Assembly: GCA_947476045.1 (NCBI GenBank)
Contig: CANJNZ010000001.1
Location: 1 to 64,000, forward strand
Reading direction: 5' to 3'
Length of the DNA: 64,000 nt
Source of the DNA: Chthoniobacteraceae bacterium
Lineage (GTDB): Bacteria > Verrucomicrobiota > Verrucomicrobiia > Chthoniobacterales > Chthoniobacteraceae
Part shown: positions 33,680 to 43,827 of the stretch, in pieces
Numbering within the stretch: position 1 is the stretch's first letter
How the letters are laid out: each line of letters opens with the position of its first letter
Translations under genes and position numbers: made by a program
The notes under the pieces: generated by a model
The model's input: the letters and a program-made list of their open reading frames with translations, nothing else
The model's database searches: none
What the model was told of the DNA's origin: nothing

Positions 33680-35587
33680 ATGAAAAAAACCGCCGCCAAA
33701 CTCAGTCGCAGAGCCATAAGAATATGCGCTTTGCCATTCGCTGTGTTGGTCGCGGTCAGTGCATCAGCCGCAGCAAACTCTTGGACTCAGGCTACCGATG
33801 AAATTTGGAATACAGACATCAATTGCACGCCTTTACCATCCGTGGAGGAAGCAGCAGCCTACACCGTGATTGCGTCAGCAAAACCGAATTCTAAAAGCAA
33901 CGAATTTACGGTCTCCTCACTGGAAATACCTGCGCATTCAGGGCTGATCACCATCAGCGGGATGAACTCCCTTACACTCAGTGACGCCGGGATGAATCGT
34001 GGATCTGAAACGCAGGATTTTGCCGTCAAAGCCATTCTGGCTTGCATTAAAAACCATATAAATCCAGCGACAGCCAGTCGCCCATTGAATGCGTTGGCAA
34101 GTGAAGTGAACCTCAACAGGATCGCGGTAAATGATTTACTCCCACAAGTAGCCATCGTCGCTTTCGACACTGAAGCAAAAAACACTGGAACCGCACTTAG
34201 CGGGCGACTCAGCGGTGCCACCAATAATGGTCAGACTTTGGCTCCCATTTTGAGCGGGGGTATTCGCCCTTTACGTAGCGAAGGGCTTTCTTTCGGAGGG
34301 GGGAGTTCAGTTGGAAGTCATGCAAACCGCAGTGGCTCGAACGCTGGCAATTCCTCACGCAGGGCTGCAAGCAATTCGGATGTCGCATCCTTCCTCCCCG
34401 ATAACGAAGAAAAATTCGTAGATAACAACCTCGCGCATCTAGGTCAAAATCATAGCGCTGAGGGTGGCTCAATCAGTCGTCTAGATGGTTCTGTCTCACC
34501 GGGCACTGAACCAATCAATGCTGTTCCGAGCGAAATCTCTAACGGCGAAATGACCAACGCGGGCAATCCAGGAGGAATCGCCTCACTCATTGCGCAAATC
34601 GACCTTTTCAAAGTCGCGCAAATCAAAGCTGGGATAAATTCAGAACTCACGAACCTCGGGCTTCCAAGGCAAAATAGCAGCAATAGCAGCAGCCTAATCA
34701 CGCCAACGGGGAGCAGCCTCAGTGTTTACAATCAGGGGCTAATTACAACGCAAATAACTCCAAGTGATTCAGTTAACATATTTGCATCGACAACAATAGC
34801 CCATCTCTCCCCCAGCTCAACACCAGCCTTCAGCAACATACCAACATCTGGTGGCAATTTCAGCAATGCGACAAGCAGTAACGGCGGCGATACCGTAACG
34901 AGTATTACAATCGCGGCCAACGGGACAACCATTGAAACCAAGGTCAGTTCTGCACGAACCCTCGCAGCAAAGCGTGCCCCCTCCCTCGCAGCTGCGCCTC
35001 CTGTAGAAACAGATGTTTCTTTTGACAGTGGCAGCCTCTTTTTAAGAGATAATCTTGGTGTTCCACTCCCTGCGGGCGGCTCCGGAGATGGAGATGGTTT
35101 TGCTGTCCAATTGGGATATTATGACGGAGCCAGCGTCGCAAATAATTTTGCCGGAAACTGGATAGCTCTGACTGGGCAAAACTCCCTCAATACCGCTTTC
35201 GCAACATCTTCCATTGGCGATGGGGAAGGCTCGGACGGCCAGCTTTTCGTCCTGTATGGATTTAATAGCGCATTATCGAATACCTTCAACAATCTCCCTC
35301 CAAATGAAACCATTCCACTCTCTCTGCGCTTCTATAATGCGGTGCTGATTTCAAATGCCACACTTTTCAACGCCGTATCCAAGGACACATGGCTGTGGAA
35401 AACACCGGGGGCGACCTCTCCTTTCCCACCAACAGTTAATATGTCTCTTGCTGGCTCTGGGCATGAGTGGCAGGGAGGGCCGGCGTCTGCCTTCAACACT
35501 ACTTTAGCTGTTCCTGAGCCCACTACTTCGGCATTCCTGCTGTTTGGCGCAGCAAGCCTCCTTGCTTATCGCCGCCGCAGGGCATGA
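33680..35587 (+). CDS. Large PEP-CTERM sorted exported protein
   Basis: A 635-residue protein. Signal peptide about 1-32 (FAVLVAVSASAAA). The middle 350 residues are rich in Ser, Asn and Gly with low-complexity stretches and no recognisable domain. The last 210 residues form a beta-rich domain beginning VSFDSGSLFLRDN. It ends with the sorting signal VPEPTTSAFLLFGAASLL followed by YRRRRA, the PEP-CTERM tripartite tail processed by exosortase. No exosortase gene is in the window. The C-terminal domain is nearly the same as the whole next gene. Confidence 0.85.
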   Translation: MKKTAAKLSRRAIRICALPFAVLVAVSASAAANSWTQATDEIWNTDINCTPLPSVEEAAAYTVIASAKPNSKSNEFTVSSLEIPAHSGLITISGMNSLTLSDAGMNRGSETQDFAVKAILACIKNHINPATASRPLNALASEVNLNRIAVNDLLPQVAIVAFDTEAKNTGTALSGRLSGATNNGQTLAPILSGGIRPLRSEGLSFGGGSSVGSHANRSGSNAGNSSRRAASNSDVASFLPDNEEKFVDNNLAHLGQNHSAEGGSISRLDGSVSPGTEPINAVPSEISNGEMTNAGNPGGIASLIAQIDLFKVAQIKAGINSELTNLGLPRQNSSNSSSLITPTGSSLSVYNQGLITTQITPSDSVNIFASTTIAHLSPSSTPAFSNIPTSGGNFSNATSSNGGDTVTSITIAANGTTIETKVSSARTLAAKRAPSLAAAPPVETDVSFDSGSLFLRDNLGVPLPAGGSGDGDGFAVQLGYYDGASVANNFAGNWIALTGQNSLNTAFATSSIGDGEGSDGQLFVLYGFNSALSNTFNNLPPNETIPLSLRFYNAVLISNATLFNAVSKDTWLWKTPGATSPFPPTVNMSLAGSGHEWQGGPASAFNTTLAVPEPTTSAFLLFGAASLLAYRRRRA

Positions 35588-35691
35588 AAAACGCACTTGC
35601 ATTACTGCGCATAAATTGCATTTTAAAAAATAGACACGTAAAAAACCATAAAGTAACAAAGTCCAAATACCCCAACCCAATCCCCGAAAAT

Positions 35692-36402
35692 ATGACCTTT
35701 TTCAAAGATAAATTTCGTATCTGTTCCGCTCTACGTAAAATCAGAACTTCCACACTGATTACCCTCCTGATGGCGACAACCGTTCCAAATTCATTTGGTG
35801 CTAACCAAACAAGTGTTTCTTTTGACATTGGCGGCAGCCTGTTTTTAAGAAACGAACTTGGTGTTCCTCTTTTTTCTGGCACTGCCGCAGATGGAGACGG
35901 TTTCGCTATCCAGCTGGGATATTATGACGTGGCCACAACAGCTAATAACTTTGCCGGAAACTGGATCCCACTTACAGGACAAAACTCCCTGAATACCGCT
36001 TTCGCTACATCTTCAATCGGGGATGGCGAACTCGGTGATGGCCAGCTTTCGACACAATATGTATTTGATAGCTCGGTATCGAATACCTTCCAAAGCCTCC
36101 CAGCCAGCGACAACACCATTCCTCTTTCACTGCGTTTCTACAATGCGGTGCTGATTTCAAATGCCACACTCTTCAACACCGTATCCAAAGACACATGGTT
36201 GTGGAGAACTCCGGCTCCCTCCGCAACTGTTCCGCCACAAATTAATATGTTTGTGACCACATCAAATCAGGGAACCCTTGAATGGCAGGGTGGAGCCCCA
36301 TCTGCCTATAAAACTACCGTAGCGATTGTTCCTGAGCCCGCCACGGCTGCTTTGCTCGTGTTTGGGCTGGCGGGACTCCTTGGACGTCGTCGCCGAGCTT
36401 AA
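35692..36402 (+). CDS. PEP-CTERM protein, paralogue of the preceding gene's C-terminus
   Basis: A 236-residue exported protein from ATG 35692, which gives a signal peptide (STLITLLMATTVPNSFGA). An in-frame ATG at 35584 overlaps the upstream stop codon, but that lead is Lys/Asn-rich and not signal-like. The mature part (VSFDIGGSLFLRNELGVPL, NSLNTAFATSSIGDGE, SLRFYNAVLISNATLFN) matches the last 210 residues of the gene before it at both protein and DNA level. It ends in VPEPATAALLVFGLAGLL and GRRRRA. A strong terminator follows. Confidence 0.85.
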   Translation: MTFFKDKFRICSALRKIRTSTLITLLMATTVPNSFGANQTSVSFDIGGSLFLRNELGVPLFSGTAADGDGFAIQLGYYDVATTANNFAGNWIPLTGQNSLNTAFATSSIGDGELGDGQLSTQYVFDSSVSNTFQSLPASDNTIPLSLRFYNAVLISNATLFNTVSKDTWLWRTPAPSATVPPQINMFVTTSNQGTLEWQGGAPSAYKTTVAIVPEPATAALLVFGLAGLLGRRRRA

Positions 36403-36432
36403 ACCGAACGAAACTCACACAATTTTGTCTCA

Positions 36433-36468
36433 CGAAGGCAAGCCTGCGGGCTTGCCTTCGTTTTTTTT
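36433..36468 (+). terminator. Rho-independent terminator after the PEP-CTERM pair
   Basis: A perfect 12-base stem, cgaaggcaagcc and ggcttgccttcg, around a 4-base loop is followed by eight T. It ends the PEP-CTERM transcript and lies 21 bases before gspF, so gspF must have its own start of transcription or rely on readthrough. Confidence 0.9.
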
Positions 36469-36489
36469 GGACATAGCAATCCACACCTC

Positions 36490-37824
36490 ATGCCTCAGTT
36501 TCGCTACACCGCCCGCAATGCTTCCGGCCAAATGGTGGATGGCATCGTGACTGCGAATGATCGGAGTGGGGCAATATCCCAAGTCGAACAGCAACGATTC
36601 GTCCCAGTCAAAATACAACTCGTCAGTGACGAGCCCTCAAAATCCGTCGCACTCGCCACCAAGCCGGCAGCCACGGAAAAGTCGCCCGCGAAATCCGACT
36701 CGAACAAAGCCGCACCACCCGCACTTCGCAACCAGTCGGTAAAGACGGCTGCGACTCCTGCTGCCACTGCCCCGCAGTCGCTCAAGCTCACTCATTCCCA
36801 ACAGTATCTTTTTACCGAGCAGCTCGCCCACCTTCTCAGCGCGGGCATGACACTCGATGAATCGCTCGGCGTCCTCTGCAAGCGCCTCAAGCACGTTAAA
36901 CTCCGCGCACTCTCACAGTCCTTGCACCAATCGCTCGTTGATGGCCGCAGCCTTTCGCAGGCCATGCGCGACTTTCCGCGCATCTTCAGCCCGCTCTACG
37001 TGAACATGGTCTCCGCAGGCGAAGCGTCCGGCTCCCTCTCCACCATTCTCCACCGCCTCACCACGCATCTCTCGGAATTGAAATCGCTGCGCGACCGCGT
37101 CCAGCAAGCACTGCTCTACCCCTCCGTTCTCGTCGTAGTCGGCATGATTTTGATCATGGTTTTCATGACGACGATGGTGCCTCAGCTCATGTCTTTCTTC
37201 AAAGACACAAACGCTAAGCTCCCGGCCGCCACGAAATTCCTGATCGATCTCAATTCTACCGTCACCGCCTACTGGTGGGTCGGCGTCGCAGGAATTTTTG
37301 CCGGCTACGTGTTGTTCCGTGCCTTCGTGGCGACGCCAGCCGGACGGCTCACCTGGGATCGGTTTAAATGGAACCTCCCGGTCCTCGGCCGCATTTCACG
37401 TTTCCGCTACTACGCACAGTTCGCACGCACACTCGGCACGCTCACGCAAAACGGCGTCACGCTCCTCCGCGCGCTGGAACTCCTCGAAGACATCGCCGGC
37501 AATGAATTCATCCGCCAGCGCATGGTTGAAATTCGCGCAGCAGTATTGGACGGAACCACTCTCTCCGTCGCCGCTACTAATCAGCACATTTTTCCCGAGA
37601 TGTTTGTGGATATGATGGGCGTCGGCGAACAGACCGGGAAATTTTCGGAAACCATGTGCCTCATCGCAGACGTTCATGAGCGGGAACTCGACAAGCAAGT
37701 TCAGGTCGTGAGCACCCTCATCCCGCCACTCATCATGGTGATGATCGCAGGCATCATCGGCACCGTCATCTACGGAATTCTCATCGCTGTCTTCAATCTC
37801 ACCAGCGGCATGCACCGCCGGTGA
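36490..37824 (+). CDS. gspF: Type II secretion system inner-membrane protein GspF
   Basis: A 444-residue platform protein. The N-terminal 45 residues (PQFRYTARNASGQMVDG) are typical of GspF/PilC; an unusual Ala/Lys/Pro-rich linker (about 50-95) follows. Two T2SSF domains carry membrane segments near 215-236, 255-277 and a C-terminal one (IPPLIMVMIAGIIGTVIYG). The repeated motif GMTLDESL / GVTLLRALELL appears at each domain start. It anchors the GspE ATPase. Together with gspG downstream and gspD-gspE at 5.8-10.2 kb it makes up the system in this window. Confidence 0.93.
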   Translation: MPQFRYTARNASGQMVDGIVTANDRSGAISQVEQQRFVPVKIQLVSDEPSKSVALATKPAATEKSPAKSDSNKAAPPALRNQSVKTAATPAATAPQSLKLTHSQQYLFTEQLAHLLSAGMTLDESLGVLCKRLKHVKLRALSQSLHQSLVDGRSLSQAMRDFPRIFSPLYVNMVSAGEASGSLSTILHRLTTHLSELKSLRDRVQQALLYPSVLVVVGMILIMVFMTTMVPQLMSFFKDTNAKLPAATKFLIDLNSTVTAYWWVGVAGIFAGYVLFRAFVATPAGRLTWDRFKWNLPVLGRISRFRYYAQFARTLGTLTQNGVTLLRALELLEDIAGNEFIRQRMVEIRAAVLDGTTLSVAATNQHIFPEMFVDMMGVGEQTGKFSETMCLIADVHERELDKQVQVVSTLIPPLIMVMIAGIIGTVIYGILIAVFNLTSGMHRR

Positions 37825-37949
37825 AACGCTAACACCCATGATGCTCAGCAGCTTTTTCGAAATCGGAAAACAACCGCGCCGCAAAGTTGTTACACTTCCA
37901 GACTCGCACGCCTTGCCTTTCATCCCGTTCGCTCACTAACTTTCCACTC

Positions 37950-38996
37950 ATGCCTCGCATCATCCTCACAACCATCTGCGCTGCCGCTCTCGCGGTCTGT
38001 GCATTTGCTGCCGAGGAATCCGCACCAATCGCGGAGCAACCCGTGCCATTCAGCGTGTGGCTCGATTTCAACACCCTCGCAAAAGCCAACGCCCCGCTGC
38101 CTGCGCTCCCGATTTGGTTTCAGTCTTTGCAAAGCGAGGCAGTCCCGGCGAATGGCGACACTCCGCCGAAAACACTTTTTCGTCTACGCCTACGCCGTCT
38201 CCCCGACCTGCATCACGAAATGCTCTTCCGTGTTTTTTTCGACGACCTGCCCGTTATGCAGCCCGTCATCAGCGCATGGAGCGAAGCTGGCAAAGAGCGC
38301 TTCCGCACCACACTACCGGGCAGCGGCACCGGTCTGCCCACGCATGAAAGCATCATCCTTCCGCTCGAAGGAACGGACTACGTGGACATCGAAGTCCCCG
38401 GCGACGGCAGCAGCATCCGCGGGGCATTTGCGAGTTCATTGAAAGACGCGCCCACGCGCCAGACCACCGACTTCGCACCAACGCCTGAACTCACCGATCC
38501 CTTCGGCAATATCACCTCCGCACCCGCTGAGGATTCAGACTCAAAACTTTTCGGACGCATCAAGGCCGTCCTCGACCCCGGCGTCGTCAGCCTTTCGCTG
38601 AAAGCGAAGACAGCGGAGACTTGGGAGTTCGACCTCGCCGCCCAGCCACTCATCGCCGTCGTCAGCTTTGATGTTTTGAATGCCGACACCGGTGCCGCAC
38701 CCGTCGTCACCGTAAATGAAGGCGACCCCGCATTTGCGAGCATTCACTGGCCCGACCTCGCAGACCCCGCTTATCGCGGCGAATCGCGTTCGCTCGAACA
38801 AGGGATGCGTTTTCAATACACCGGCTGGCTCCACGCCCAGGCGATCATCTCGGGAAAAGTTCTTCGCTCCGGCTTGAACAAAATCACCATCGGCTTGTCT
38901 GAAGGAAGTAGCTCGATCGCCGTTCGTAACGTCGAACTGCAGCTCAAACACAATTGGAAACACTTCGACTACATCCTCAGTCCCACAAATCCATGA
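37950..38996 (+). CDS. Exported protein of unknown function between gspF and gspG
   Basis: A 348-residue protein with signal peptide (IILTTICAAALAVCAFAAEE). The rest is beta-rich with no recognised domain and contains short segments such as PFSVWLDFNTLAKAN and FRLRLRRLPDLHHEMLF. The ATG at 37950 was chosen for the signal peptide. Its stop overlaps the gspG start (ATGA), so the two are co-translated. The position suggests a secretion-system accessory or minor component in the periplasm; this is inference. Confidence 0.7.
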   Translation: MPRIILTTICAAALAVCAFAAEESAPIAEQPVPFSVWLDFNTLAKANAPLPALPIWFQSLQSEAVPANGDTPPKTLFRLRLRRLPDLHHEMLFRVFFDDLPVMQPVISAWSEAGKERFRTTLPGSGTGLPTHESIILPLEGTDYVDIEVPGDGSSIRGAFASSLKDAPTRQTTDFAPTPELTDPFGNITSAPAEDSDSKLFGRIKAVLDPGVVSLSLKAKTAETWEFDLAAQPLIAVVSFDVLNADTGAAPVVTVNEGDPAFASIHWPDLADPAYRGESRSLEQGMRFQYTGWLHAQAIISGKVLRSGLNKITIGLSEGSSSIAVRNVELQLKHNWKHFDYILSPTNP

Positions 38997-39418
38997 AACC
39001 GCTTCTGCGCAATAAAACAGCCGGCTTTACGCTCCTCGAAATCATGCTGGTGATCATCATCATCGTCACTCTCATGGCGGTGCTCCTGCCAAATTTGAAG
39101 AACGCGATGTCCGACTCCAAAAAAGGCGAGGCACAAATCTACATCACCACTATCGCAGGCAATCTCGCCCAATACGAACTGCTCAACGGAATGCCTCCAT
39201 CGAGCAGTCAGGGATTGAAAGCACTGATGGAAAAACCCGCAGGCGATCCCCAGCCGCGCAAATGGCGTCAGCATATGGAGAAAATCATGCCCGATCCGTG
39301 GGGTGTGGACTACCGCTACGAATTCCCGGGGCGCCATAACAAAAACAACTACGACGTCTTTAGCTGTGGCCCGGATCGCGCGCCAAACACAGAAGACGAC
39401 ATCGGAAACTGGGACTAA
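38993..39418 (+). CDS. gspG: Type II secretion system major pseudopilin GspG
   Basis: A 141-residue prepilin-like protein. The leader KPLLRNKTAG is followed by the cleavage site G11/F12 and GFTLLEIMLVIIIIVTLM with Glu at position +5. The C-terminal half shows the GspG calcium-site signature: DPWGVDYRYEFPG, then YDVFSCGPDRAPNTEDDIGNW. It forms the pseudopilus. No prepilin peptidase or other minor pseudopilins are present here. The start is overlapped by the preceding gene, and a terminator follows. Confidence 0.93.
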   Translation: MKPLLRNKTAGFTLLEIMLVIIIIVTLMAVLLPNLKNAMSDSKKGEAQIYITTIAGNLAQYELLNGMPPSSSQGLKALMEKPAGDPQPRKWRQHMEKIMPDPWGVDYRYEFPGRHNKNNYDVFSCGPDRAPNTEDDIGNWD

Positions 39419-40122: not shown

Positions 40123-43100
40123 ATGCGCATCCTGATGAGCACCCATTTTTTCCGCGACAAAACCGTGCACATCGCCCGAGGCATCGGCCGTTTCTTCAAT
40201 CGCGGATGGCGTCGCCTCGTTGGCAAACCGCGACCCGCAGAAGAGCAGAGCCTTTTTCCACTCGTCATCCAGGTGCTCGCCGCGTTTTCAAAAAGCGAAG
40301 GCGAAGTCGTCGAGGAGGAAGTGGACAACGTGCTCGGCCTTCTTCGCCACGGATTTCCCGATGGCGTTTACTCCGATTTACGCCGCCAGTTCCGCGATGC
40401 GCTGGGTCAGCAGCAGGACATCAACGCCATGGCCGACCGCCTCTCGCGCGTGCTCGGCCCCGAGCAAAAAATCATGCTCGGCGTGCAACTCTACGACATC
40501 ATCGCGCGCGTCGGTGAAGGGCAGAAGCAGATGCCCGCATTTTACGCATTCATGGATCGCCTCGGCATGGCGACGCAGGCTATCGAGATCGTTCACCAAC
40601 TGCAGGCTGGTGAAAAGGCGGACAAAGCCGTGGCGCAGTCCGGCGAGTTTCCACTCGAGGTTCTCACATTCGGACGCGATGCGCAGGCTGATGTCTGGCT
40701 GAAAGGATTTCACGCCGATGAGCGACTCGTAGCCTTCCGCTTCCATGCACTCGTGCTGGTAAAAAACGCGGCGCAGCGAACCGTCTTTGTGCGCGGGCGC
40801 CCGCTGCTACCCGGCACATTCTGCCGCATCTACCCCGGCCAGCGCGTCGTGCTCGACGAACAGGTGCTCACGTTTCAGGACATCACCTATTATTTCAACG
40901 CGAAGAAAGGCGTCTTCGCCACGCAGGTCTTTGTCGAATTGAACGACAAGGACGAAGTGGAACTTTCCCGCGTCCGCACTCGCGCCAGCGTGCTCGAAGT
41001 GCGCTTCGGATTGAAAGTGCAGGTGCGCGCACTTGCGGATGTGGATGCACTGCTCAACGGCGTCGCACTACGCAGCAGCACGATGCTGAATGCCACGCTC
41101 GAAGACCGCATCATCTTCCACCACGACGCCGAACTCACCCTCGCCGATCTCCGCCGCCGCGCCCGCGCGCTCGGCGTCCGCTTTCAACTCAAGAGCTACA
41201 AGAGCGCCTACAAAGTCTCGAACAACCCGAGCTTGCTGGAGACAGACGACATTCTGCTCTCGCCCGGCACCTCCGGCGACGTGCTGCTGCGCGTGCTTTG
41301 CGATTACGACAACAAGGTAGGTAAACTCGAAGTCAGCGCTGCGGACCGCCCTATCATCGTCGGCGATAAAGTCATCCCCGTCGGCGGAACGTGTGAGTTG
41401 AAGGACGACGATTTCATCCGCATTGATGCCGGCCAGGGGCTGCGCTGCGACTTCAGCGAACGCATCATCGAGGAGGAGCGCAACATCGTCTCCTCGCTCG
41501 AATTGCGTGACCTCACGTGCCACTTCGGCGGCAACGTTACCGCGCTCGACGGCATCAGTTTCTCACTCACGCGCGGCGACCTCGTGTGCGTGATGGGCGG
41601 CAGCGGTTCTGGAAAAAGCACACTGCTCCGCGCCATCGCAGGCCGCCTCCCGGCATCGCGCGGCCAGGTGCTTCTCAACGGCCAGGAGCTTTACGAAAAC
41701 CTCGACGAATTCAAACGCTTCATCGCCTACATCCCACAGGACGACGCATTCGACGACCATCTCACCGTGGAGGAAAATCTCGCCTACGCCGCGGCAATCC
41801 GGTCGCCACATCTCAGCGATAATGACCGCGAGCGCCGCGTGGACAGCCGCCTCGTCGAACTCGGACTCGCCGAGCGTCGAGACGTCATCGTCGGCTCCGC
41901 CGAAAAAAAGACGCTCTCCGGCGGTGAACGCAAACGGCTGAATATCGGTCTCGATATGATTTCGAGCGCCGACATTTTCCTTTTCGACGAACCCACCAGT
42001 GGCCTCAGCAGCAAGGACAGCGAGCACGTCATCGAAATCATCCGTGGCATCGCGCACAACAAGATCGTCTTCGTCGTCATCCACCAGCCGAGCGCGCGGC
42101 TGTTCTCGATGTTCACCAAAGCCATCCTCCTCGATCGTGGCGGCAAGCTCGTCTTCCACGGCAAACCAGCGGAGATGCTCGACTACTTCGCCGAAGCCGC
42201 CATCGAGGAAAAAGGCATGACGGCTGATGCAGCAAAACGCAGCGCCGACAGCGCCGAGTTCTGTTTCGATGTGCTCGAAACACCACTCCACGACCTCAGC
42301 GGCGATGTCATTCTGGAAGAGGGAAGCAACGGACAGCTCATCCCCGCGCGCCGCTTTTCGCCGGATTTCTGGCGCGACCGCTACGAAGCCCATCGCCTCA
42401 CGCAGGACGTAAAGTTGAACTTCACCCGCTCGGGAAAATCCCCCACCCCGAGCACCATCGAGCCTCCTGCTCAGATGAGCACCGTCAGCTTTGCCGGCCC
42501 GCAGACCAATGTCTCCGTGCCTGTGCCGCGCCCCGCCAAACCCAAGGCCGCGCCAGTCCCCGGCACCTTGCGCCAACTCCGCTGGCGCGCCGAGTGGCTG
42601 CAATTTCACACACTCCTGCGCCGCGCTTTCCTCTCAAAGCTCCGCAACGTCGCCAGCCTCTTCGTCACAGTCCTCGCCCCGCCCGTGCTCGGCGCGATTG
42701 TCGGCTGGGCGCTTTATTTCACCGATGACGCCGATCATCCCTACGTCTTCGCGTCCGCGTTTCACGTTCCGACTTACATCTTCATCGCGCTGCTCGTCGC
42801 ACTTTTCCTCGCACTCATGAATAGCGTCGAAGACATCATCCGCGACCGCTCCGTGCTCCAGCGCGAGCGCAATCTCGATGTCGGCATTGGCTACTACGTC
42901 ACGGCGAAATTTCTTACGCTCTGCGTTTTCTCCGCGCTCCAGTGCGCACTATTCATCATCGTCGGCAACAGTATCCTCGAAGTGCGCGGCATGTTTTGGG
43001 AATACTTCCTGTGGACCTTCCTCACCGCCGTCAGCGGCATCGCCCTCGGCCTGCTCGTCTCCGCACTCGTGCCGAACTCCAAAACCGGTGCGATGCTCGT

Positions 43101-43827
43101 CCCGCTCATCCTCATACCGCAACTCATCTTCGGCGGCGCACTCATCAAATACGAAGAGATGAACAAAGACCCCGGACTCCTGTATTCCTTCCAGCGCTGG
43201 TTCGAAAATAAACACGTCGCCAGCGACATGGAGGCCGACAAAAAACTCCGCGTCCCGCTCATCAGCCGCCTCGTCGCCACGCACTACAGCTACGAGGCCC
43301 TCGTCGTCGCGCAGGCAAAGCTCAACCCTCTCGCCACCCGGCAGCAGGAACTCCAGCGCATGATCGAAACGCTCGCCGCCAAACCCACACGCAGCGAAAC
43401 CGAGGACGACCGTCTGGATGATTTAAAAGACACCCTCGCCCAGCTCAGCGGACTCGAAGCAGGCAGTCCCCGCGAAATTGACCGCCGCCTCGCACGCGCC
43501 GACGAAATCATCGCAGGCAGCCCCACCAGCAAAGGCGACTTCCGCACCAAAGTCCTCGGCATCACCGCCAGCCAACTCTACGAAAACCAGAAAATCGCCG
43601 ACATGGTCGCCAAGGCCGAAACCGAGCAAAACGACTACCGCCGTAACTACCGCATCAACCCCTTCTTCAGCCCCGAAAAACACCACTTCTATCTCGGTAA
43701 AAACGAAGGCGGCTGGACAACGAGCGTCTGGTTTCGCAACGGAGCTATCCTCCTCCTCACCTCCCTCGTCCAACTCATCCTCCTCCGCTGGGTCCTCCGC
43801 AGACAGCTCCAAAAGACGGGAGTATAA
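40123..43827 (+). CDS. Giant ABCG-type ABC transporter with TerB-like and FHA-like N-terminal domains
   Basis: A 1234-residue fused transporter. Residues about 40-160 are helical and TerB-like (VIQVLAAFSKSEGEVVEEEV). Two beta-rich, FHA-like regions follow (about 175-260 and 360-460). The ABC domain has Walker A GGSGSGKST (near 492-500), signature LSGGERKR (near 596) and Walker B FLFDEPTSGL (near 620), in the ABCG/White order. The last 400 residues are an ABC2-type permease with about six membrane helices, interrupted by a long coiled-coil loop. Substrate unknown. Starts at ATG 40123 or 40135. Confidence 0.88.
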   Translation: MRILMSTHFFRDKTVHIARGIGRFFNRGWRRLVGKPRPAEEQSLFPLVIQVLAAFSKSEGEVVEEEVDNVLGLLRHGFPDGVYSDLRRQFRDALGQQQDINAMADRLSRVLGPEQKIMLGVQLYDIIARVGEGQKQMPAFYAFMDRLGMATQAIEIVHQLQAGEKADKAVAQSGEFPLEVLTFGRDAQADVWLKGFHADERLVAFRFHALVLVKNAAQRTVFVRGRPLLPGTFCRIYPGQRVVLDEQVLTFQDITYYFNAKKGVFATQVFVELNDKDEVELSRVRTRASVLEVRFGLKVQVRALADVDALLNGVALRSSTMLNATLEDRIIFHHDAELTLADLRRRARALGVRFQLKSYKSAYKVSNNPSLLETDDILLSPGTSGDVLLRVLCDYDNKVGKLEVSAADRPIIVGDKVIPVGGTCELKDDDFIRIDAGQGLRCDFSERIIEEERNIVSSLELRDLTCHFGGNVTALDGISFSLTRGDLVCVMGGSGSGKSTLLRAIAGRLPASRGQVLLNGQELYENLDEFKRFIAYIPQDDAFDDHLTVEENLAYAAAIRSPHLSDNDRERRVDSRLVELGLAERRDVIVGSAEKKTLSGGERKRLNIGLDMISSADIFLFDEPTSGLSSKDSEHVIEIIRGIAHNKIVFVVIHQPSARLFSMFTKAILLDRGGKLVFHGKPAEMLDYFAEAAIEEKGMTADAAKRSADSAEFCFDVLETPLHDLSGDVILEEGSNGQLIPARRFSPDFWRDRYEAHRLTQDVKLNFTRSGKSPTPSTIEPPAQMSTVSFAGPQTNVSVPVPRPAKPKAAPVPGTLRQLRWRAEWLQFHTLLRRAFLSKLRNVASLFVTVLAPPVLGAIVGWALYFTDDADHPYVFASAFHVPTYIFIALLVALFLALMNSVEDIIRDRSVLQRERNLDVGIGYYVTAKFLTLCVFSALQCALFIIVGNSILEVRGMFWEYFLWTFLTAVSGIALGLLVSALVPNSKTGAMLVPLILIPQLIFGGALIKYEEMNKDPGLLYSFQRWFENKHVASDMEADKKLRVPLISRLVATHYSYEALVVAQAKLNPLATRQQELQRMIETLAAKPTRSETEDDRLDDLKDTLAQLSGLEAGSPREIDRRLARADEIIAGSPTSKGDFRTKVLGITASQLYENQKIADMVAKAETEQNDYRRNYRINPFFSPEKHHFYLGKNEGGWTTSVWFRNGAILLLTSLVQLILLRWVLRRQLQKTGV

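Follow-up and report, generated by a model that had tools for sequence, protein, structure and literature searches.

What is known of FHA-headed ABC pumps comes mainly from Rv1747 of Mycobacterium tuberculosis, in which the reading of phosphothreonine is tied to the function of the pump. According to the excerpted text of the two relevant papers, this protein putatively exports glycolipids of the envelope and binds phosphothreonine through its FHA I domain (PMC5549992); it is a single chain with the architecture FHA-FHA-NBD-TMD, and its FHA part is able to cluster (PMC9312465). Rv1747 is the nearest studied analogue of the protein analysed here, which is encoded in a stretch of 64,000 nucleotides of a Chthoniobacteraceae genome (contig CANJNZ010000001.1, positions 1 to 64,000; hereafter the window). 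In both proteins a single chain carries FHA-fold modules ahead of an ABCG-like NBD and TMD (PMC9312465, as excerpted), and both are likely to export towards the envelope. However, our protein has in addition a TerB-like domain, of which the excerpted text of PMC9312465 gives no description for Rv1747; its FHA folds are without the residues for reading phosphothreonine, which FHA I does (PMC5549992, as excerpted); and an extra segment precedes TM6. Two FHA domains from type VII secretion, those of EssC and SAV0287, are among the best fold matches of its last FHA module but belong to another machine without an ABCG part. Human ABCG1 and the eukaryotic ABCG half-transporters share with it the NBD-TMD order, the ABCG fold and similarity in the NBD sequence, and differ by the absence of a TerB or FHA head. 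Literature searches among open-licence papers, combining TerB with FHA or ABC transporter and Verrucomicrobia with ABCG, had nothing on the present architecture among the papers listed.

The 1234-residue chain described in an earlier sequence-only reading is present with its frame intact and without internal stops (Table 1). Relatives at about 28-97% identity keep the frame at full length and it is therefore a real gene. A scan of 84,980 species with two short motifs of near relatives matched 273 loci, and the counts of relatives given here are biased to near kin. In 72 of the 80 loci listed the open frame spans at least 900 residues; of the remaining eight, seven run into the end of their contig and L075 is truncated at 832 residues. 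The true start may be the second in-frame ATG, because the nearest relative has a valine in place of the first methionine and several relatives start with MS near the second. The product is a predicted membrane export pump with what would be a regulatory front end of unusual make, built into the chain and retained in nearly all close relatives. Our reading, to which we give a probability of roughly 0.6, is that of an ABCG-type half-transporter, most likely acting as a homodimer to export a hydrophobic or lipid-like compound of the envelope, in which the TerB/FHA-fold head would work independently of phosphorylation.

Table 1. Features of the gene and its product, in positions of the window
Feature	Residues	Position	Strand	Basis
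Whole gene		40123..43827	+	1234 codons and stop; true start possibly 40135
TerB-like helical domain	about 42-166	40246..40620	+	Sub-threshold Pfam match, hhalign, orthologues, L190, model helices
FHA-fold module 1, without phosphothreonine-binding residues	about 178-262	40654..40908	+	VIA-align, hhalign, residue counts
Beta-rich middle stretch	about 263-350	40909..41172	+	Strands in model; hhalign 21-33%
Last FHA-fold module	about 351-455	41173..41487	+	VIA-align, hhalign; ends in conserved LRCxFSERIIEEERN linker
ABC nucleotide-binding domain	about 459-706	41497..42240	+	Pfam, PDB sequence matches, motifs
Permease TM1-TM5	about 821-1009	42583..43149	+	ABC2_membrane, hydropathy, ABCG1 fold match
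TM5-TM6 loop with extra helical segment	1010-1201	43150..43725	+	Length compared with FHA-ABCG paralogues
TM6 and C-terminal tail	1202-1234	43726..43824	+	Hydropathy peak 1202-1220; model helix

The assignment of the back half to an ABCG half-transporter with its permease, already made from the sequence, was borne out by Pfam domains and by fold comparison. ABC_tran (residues 475-626) and ABC2_membrane (827-1017) both match far over their cut-offs, and the five motifs of the NBD are all intact, namely Walker A (492-500), the Q-loop (536-539), the signature (598-602), Walker B (618-628) and the H-loop (653-657). Fungal PDR pumps and ABCG proteins are the top sequence matches in the PDB, and six hydropathy peaks indicate one six-helix ABC-2 TMD behind the NBD in the single chain. 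The best fold match of the NBD and TMD of the model is ABCG1 (7r8d; Z 25.7, rmsd 16.8, 482 residues aligned). The full-length model is poor, with a mean pLDDT of 66.1 and a pTM of 0.40, and the arrangement of its domains is not reliable because the rmsd is 16-19 in most of the fold-match rows. A CPACG motif with two cysteines follows the NBD in many relatives, at about residue 700, and is absent from the protein of the window (42199-42240).

The part of the protein between the end of TM5 and the C-terminus is 237 residues long, whereas five FHA-ABCG paralogues have 108-115 residues there and L190, a further paralogue, has 175, so that a helical segment of about 120 residues has been added in the TM5-TM6 loop. 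This loop is shorter in the eukaryotic ABCG half-transporters, human ABCG1 included. Two matches of the loop alone to armadillo-repeat proteins (best E 0.00026) were read as general helical similarity and not as homology.

The sequence-only reading had placed TerB-like and FHA-like domains in the front half, and sensitive searches of this part found similarity to both. For TerB (PF05099) the Pfam match at residues 49-119 reaches 16.9-18.7 bits, the higher value coming from a scan of the front part alone, and stays below the gathering cut-off of 24.4; two orthologues exceed this cut-off (24.7, neighbouring stretches counted in), as does the sister paralogue L190 (27.8). The hhalign comparison with TerB proteins of relatives gives a probability of 85%, eight control segments remaining at or below 1.1%, and the predicted model of residues 1-460 has helices over this stretch. 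The acidic N-terminal motif of TerB is kept (of 59 rows, 55 have E66 and 57 have D68). Such conservation, together with the fact that TerB is named for tellurite resistance, would suit a stress exporter whose opening is triggered by a metal or other stress ligand sensed by the TerB domain. The DG-type motif, the second of TerB, is lost, however, residues 130-131 being mostly AG, and no metal-resistance gene was recognised nearby, either among the genes of the window, judged by eye, or among the scanned neighbours of relatives. Transport of metal ions is not known for ABCG pumps. We therefore regard a stress-sensing function of this kind as very unlikely.

At least two FHA-fold modules follow the TerB-like domain, as fold comparison and profile-profile alignment indicate. 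In VIA-align, module 1 (residues 178-256) superposes on the FHA domain of KIF13B (3fm8) with Z 8.8 and rmsd 2.3 over 74 aligned residues, and the last module (350-455) on 1wv3 (Z 10.1, rmsd 2.7, 94 aligned) and on EssC 5fwh (Z 9.4, rmsd 2.7, 89 aligned), 1wv3 being the FHA domain of SAV0287. With hhalign the probabilities against FHA are 83% for module 1 and 82%, over 27 columns, for the last module, five control segments lying at or below 0.8%. The stretch of residues 263-350 between them reaches 21-33%; it has no separate match in the list of the fold comparison, which by itself proves nothing, and it is possibly a further, decayed FHA-derived module. Plain Pfam searches are without an FHA match (PF00498, cut-off 20.7) in this protein up to an E value of 1, and with E values allowed up to 10 they give matches in six of 22 relatives, the best at 0.0028. 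Foldseek alone returned nothing at E of 0.001 or below for the front-half model, whose quality is fair (residues 1-460, pLDDT 77.7), and the front-half profiles gave chance matches only against the sequences of PDB chains, so that a solved relative does not show up at the level of sequence. The front half is thus a TerB-like domain followed by two or more FHA-fold modules.

It had further been proposed that the FHA-like parts could bind phosphopeptides and gate the pump. In a gated pump of the Rv1747 type, a Ser/Thr kinase would mark a partner or the pump itself, and the FHA modules would read the mark and switch transport. The order of the domains, with FHA folds preceding the ABCG half as in Rv1747, agrees with this mechanism, and the genome of the window has eight matches to Pkinase (Ser/Thr kinase), so that phosphothreonine signalling may exist in the cell. 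The canonical residues for such reading are nevertheless missing in nearly all relatives. By profile alignment, on which the assignment of the Ser, His and Asn positions hangs, the ligand positions of an FHA domain fall in module 1 on residues 184, 185, 197, 200 and 219, and among 59 relatives the glycine is kept in 51, the arginine in 7, Ser/Thr in 10, the histidine in 3 and the asparagine in 2. A looser pattern, GR..[ST]xxH, is found once in 59 when the whole of module 1 is searched and in two of 59 for the last module. As a yardstick, GR..SxxH is present in 26 of 26 ordinary FHA domains of related genomes (29 loci were taken; L136 and L156, each with a stop in its stretch, and L132, a wrong stretch, were removed). 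In addition, no kinase occurs among ten scanned neighbour proteins of relatives, and ordinary FHA-ABCG pumps with intact motifs form a separate branch in related genomes. Judging from these residues, the protein does not look like a phosphothreonine reader of its cell; binding of phosphopeptides and gating by phosphorylation both find no support here, and the latter we hold to be highly improbable, even though FHA folds can use other surfaces and the loss of the motif is no proof against the binding of phosphoproteins. R206, N215, G296, L297, C442 and F444 are invariant in all 59 relatives, which argues that selection keeps these modules for another role.

We read the family as a phosphorylation-independent variant of the FHA-headed ABCG exporters. 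In such a pump two half-transporter chains would pair as a homodimer and export a hydrophobic or lipid-like compound towards the envelope, the ABCG fold and the Rv1747 analogue being the reasons why we infer a lipid-like substrate. The cytoplasmic head, with TerB first and the FHA-fold modules after it, would form a fixed regulatory or docking platform, a scaffold acting by protein-protein contacts and not by phosphothreonine recognition, and the extra segment between TM5 and TM6, presumably periplasmic, might take part in the hand-over of the substrate. A widely kept branch that combines an FHA fold devoid of the reading residues with TerB and an extra periplasmic segment would mean that these pumps can also be controlled in a second way, independently of phosphorylation.

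Members of the window's order abound in soil and fresh water, and orthologues are present in 37 of the 38 genomes of this order (a raw tally of 38 counts any ABC match), several of them split or cut by contig ends; the lone genome without one is of 0.9 Mb. Head and pump are conserved as a single chain in these 37 genomes and in 41 of 288 sampled genomes of the phylum, in which the front part is confined to the order of the window and to two families of the same class (codes f14 and f17). Two order-mates of 0.9 Mb are without the front part among the genomes listed. All of the 80 loci listed out of 273 carry Verrucomicrobiota titles with the exception of L104, a MAG titled Acidobacteriales, which we take as mislabelled, and a search of plasmids with the front part gave no match. 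The architecture of TerB, pseudo-FHA and ABCG is a conserved Verrucomicrobiota family. Seven MAGs (L094, L106, L130, L052, L055, L057 and L104) bear the titles Akkermansia muciniphila, Prosthecobacter debontii or Acidobacteriales against identities of 57-96% to the present Chthoniobacterales family, and are likely mislabelled bins.

Genomes of the same order also carry FHA-ABCG pumps with intact motifs. Five of them (L233, L234, L236, L237 and L244) share with our protein the order FHA, ABC ATPase and ABC-2 permease in one chain, but have intact GR and SRxH-type FHA motifs, a part from TM5 to the end that is half as long and a separate position in the tree; in L233, the only one of them scanned, Pfam TerB gave no match. 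In a tree of NBD and TMD with 34 rows, which is rooted arbitrarily, has long branches flagged and includes neither Rv1747 nor five f14 rows of the family that the pattern did not catch, a branch with support 100/99 sets 16 rows of the family and L190 apart from seven FHA-ABCG and ten FHA-less ABCG rows. L190 (L190:5680-8967) is a second TerB-headed ABCG protein, of 1095 residues, sister to the family; it has TerB over the Pfam cut-off, the ABCG half and a long TM5-TM6 loop, but only 35% identity over the back half, and it lies outside the single-copy set, being found in one order-mate among the 38 genomes. A further FHA-ABCG protein, of 940 residues (L235:220-3042), has a seemingly long insert in the permease part and a first FHA of degenerate appearance.

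With regard to the neighbourhood, an ftsH-like gene lies divergently and directly upstream of the transporter in 37 of 60 distinct loci of the order and in all six loci of two f14 genera (each set of identical targets counts as one locus, and only loci with at least 2.5 kb upstream are included). It is not adjacent in the window, nor in 20 of 20 loci of genus g27, one of one of g64 and six of six of f17, and in one further genome the two genes are about 15 kb apart. Pfam confirmed FtsH in three of three tested. Ten of ten genomes tested have a single FtsH match of more than 500 residues (E 1e-40), two of them with a second, partial one, so the head-to-head gene appears to be their sole full-length FtsH. 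This pattern of adjacency suggests an ancient head-to-head pairing that several branches, including the genus of the window, have since lost. The head-to-head arrangement can be seen at L070:5657-7693, L077, L184, L185, L199-L202 and others, in two families.

An envelope-maintenance pump working with FtsH could be drawn from these data, the ancestral head-to-head genes with their common upstream region serving a joint homeostasis of membrane lipids or proteins; adjacency, however, is absent from whole groups and may equally be a retained ancestral order without common function, so that this explanation appears rather unlikely. The broader idea of a core Verrucomicrobiota envelope transporter, ancestrally head to head with a single ftsH, whose TerB and pseudo-FHA head would be a phosphorylation-independent assembly platform coupling lipid export to membrane quality control, seems to us somewhat less probable still. 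The pairing offers a testable partner for the transporter. In the window itself the neighbours, named by eye, are GspF-like, GspG-like, KTSC-like, sulfatase, rpoA and rplQ genes; as they are mostly not common to the relatives, we do not propose any of them as an operon partner. Upstream of the transporter (35584-39418) a PEP-CTERM-like protein is followed by the GspF-like and GspG-like genes, also judged by eye, which points to a cluster of type II secretion or pseudopilin genes.
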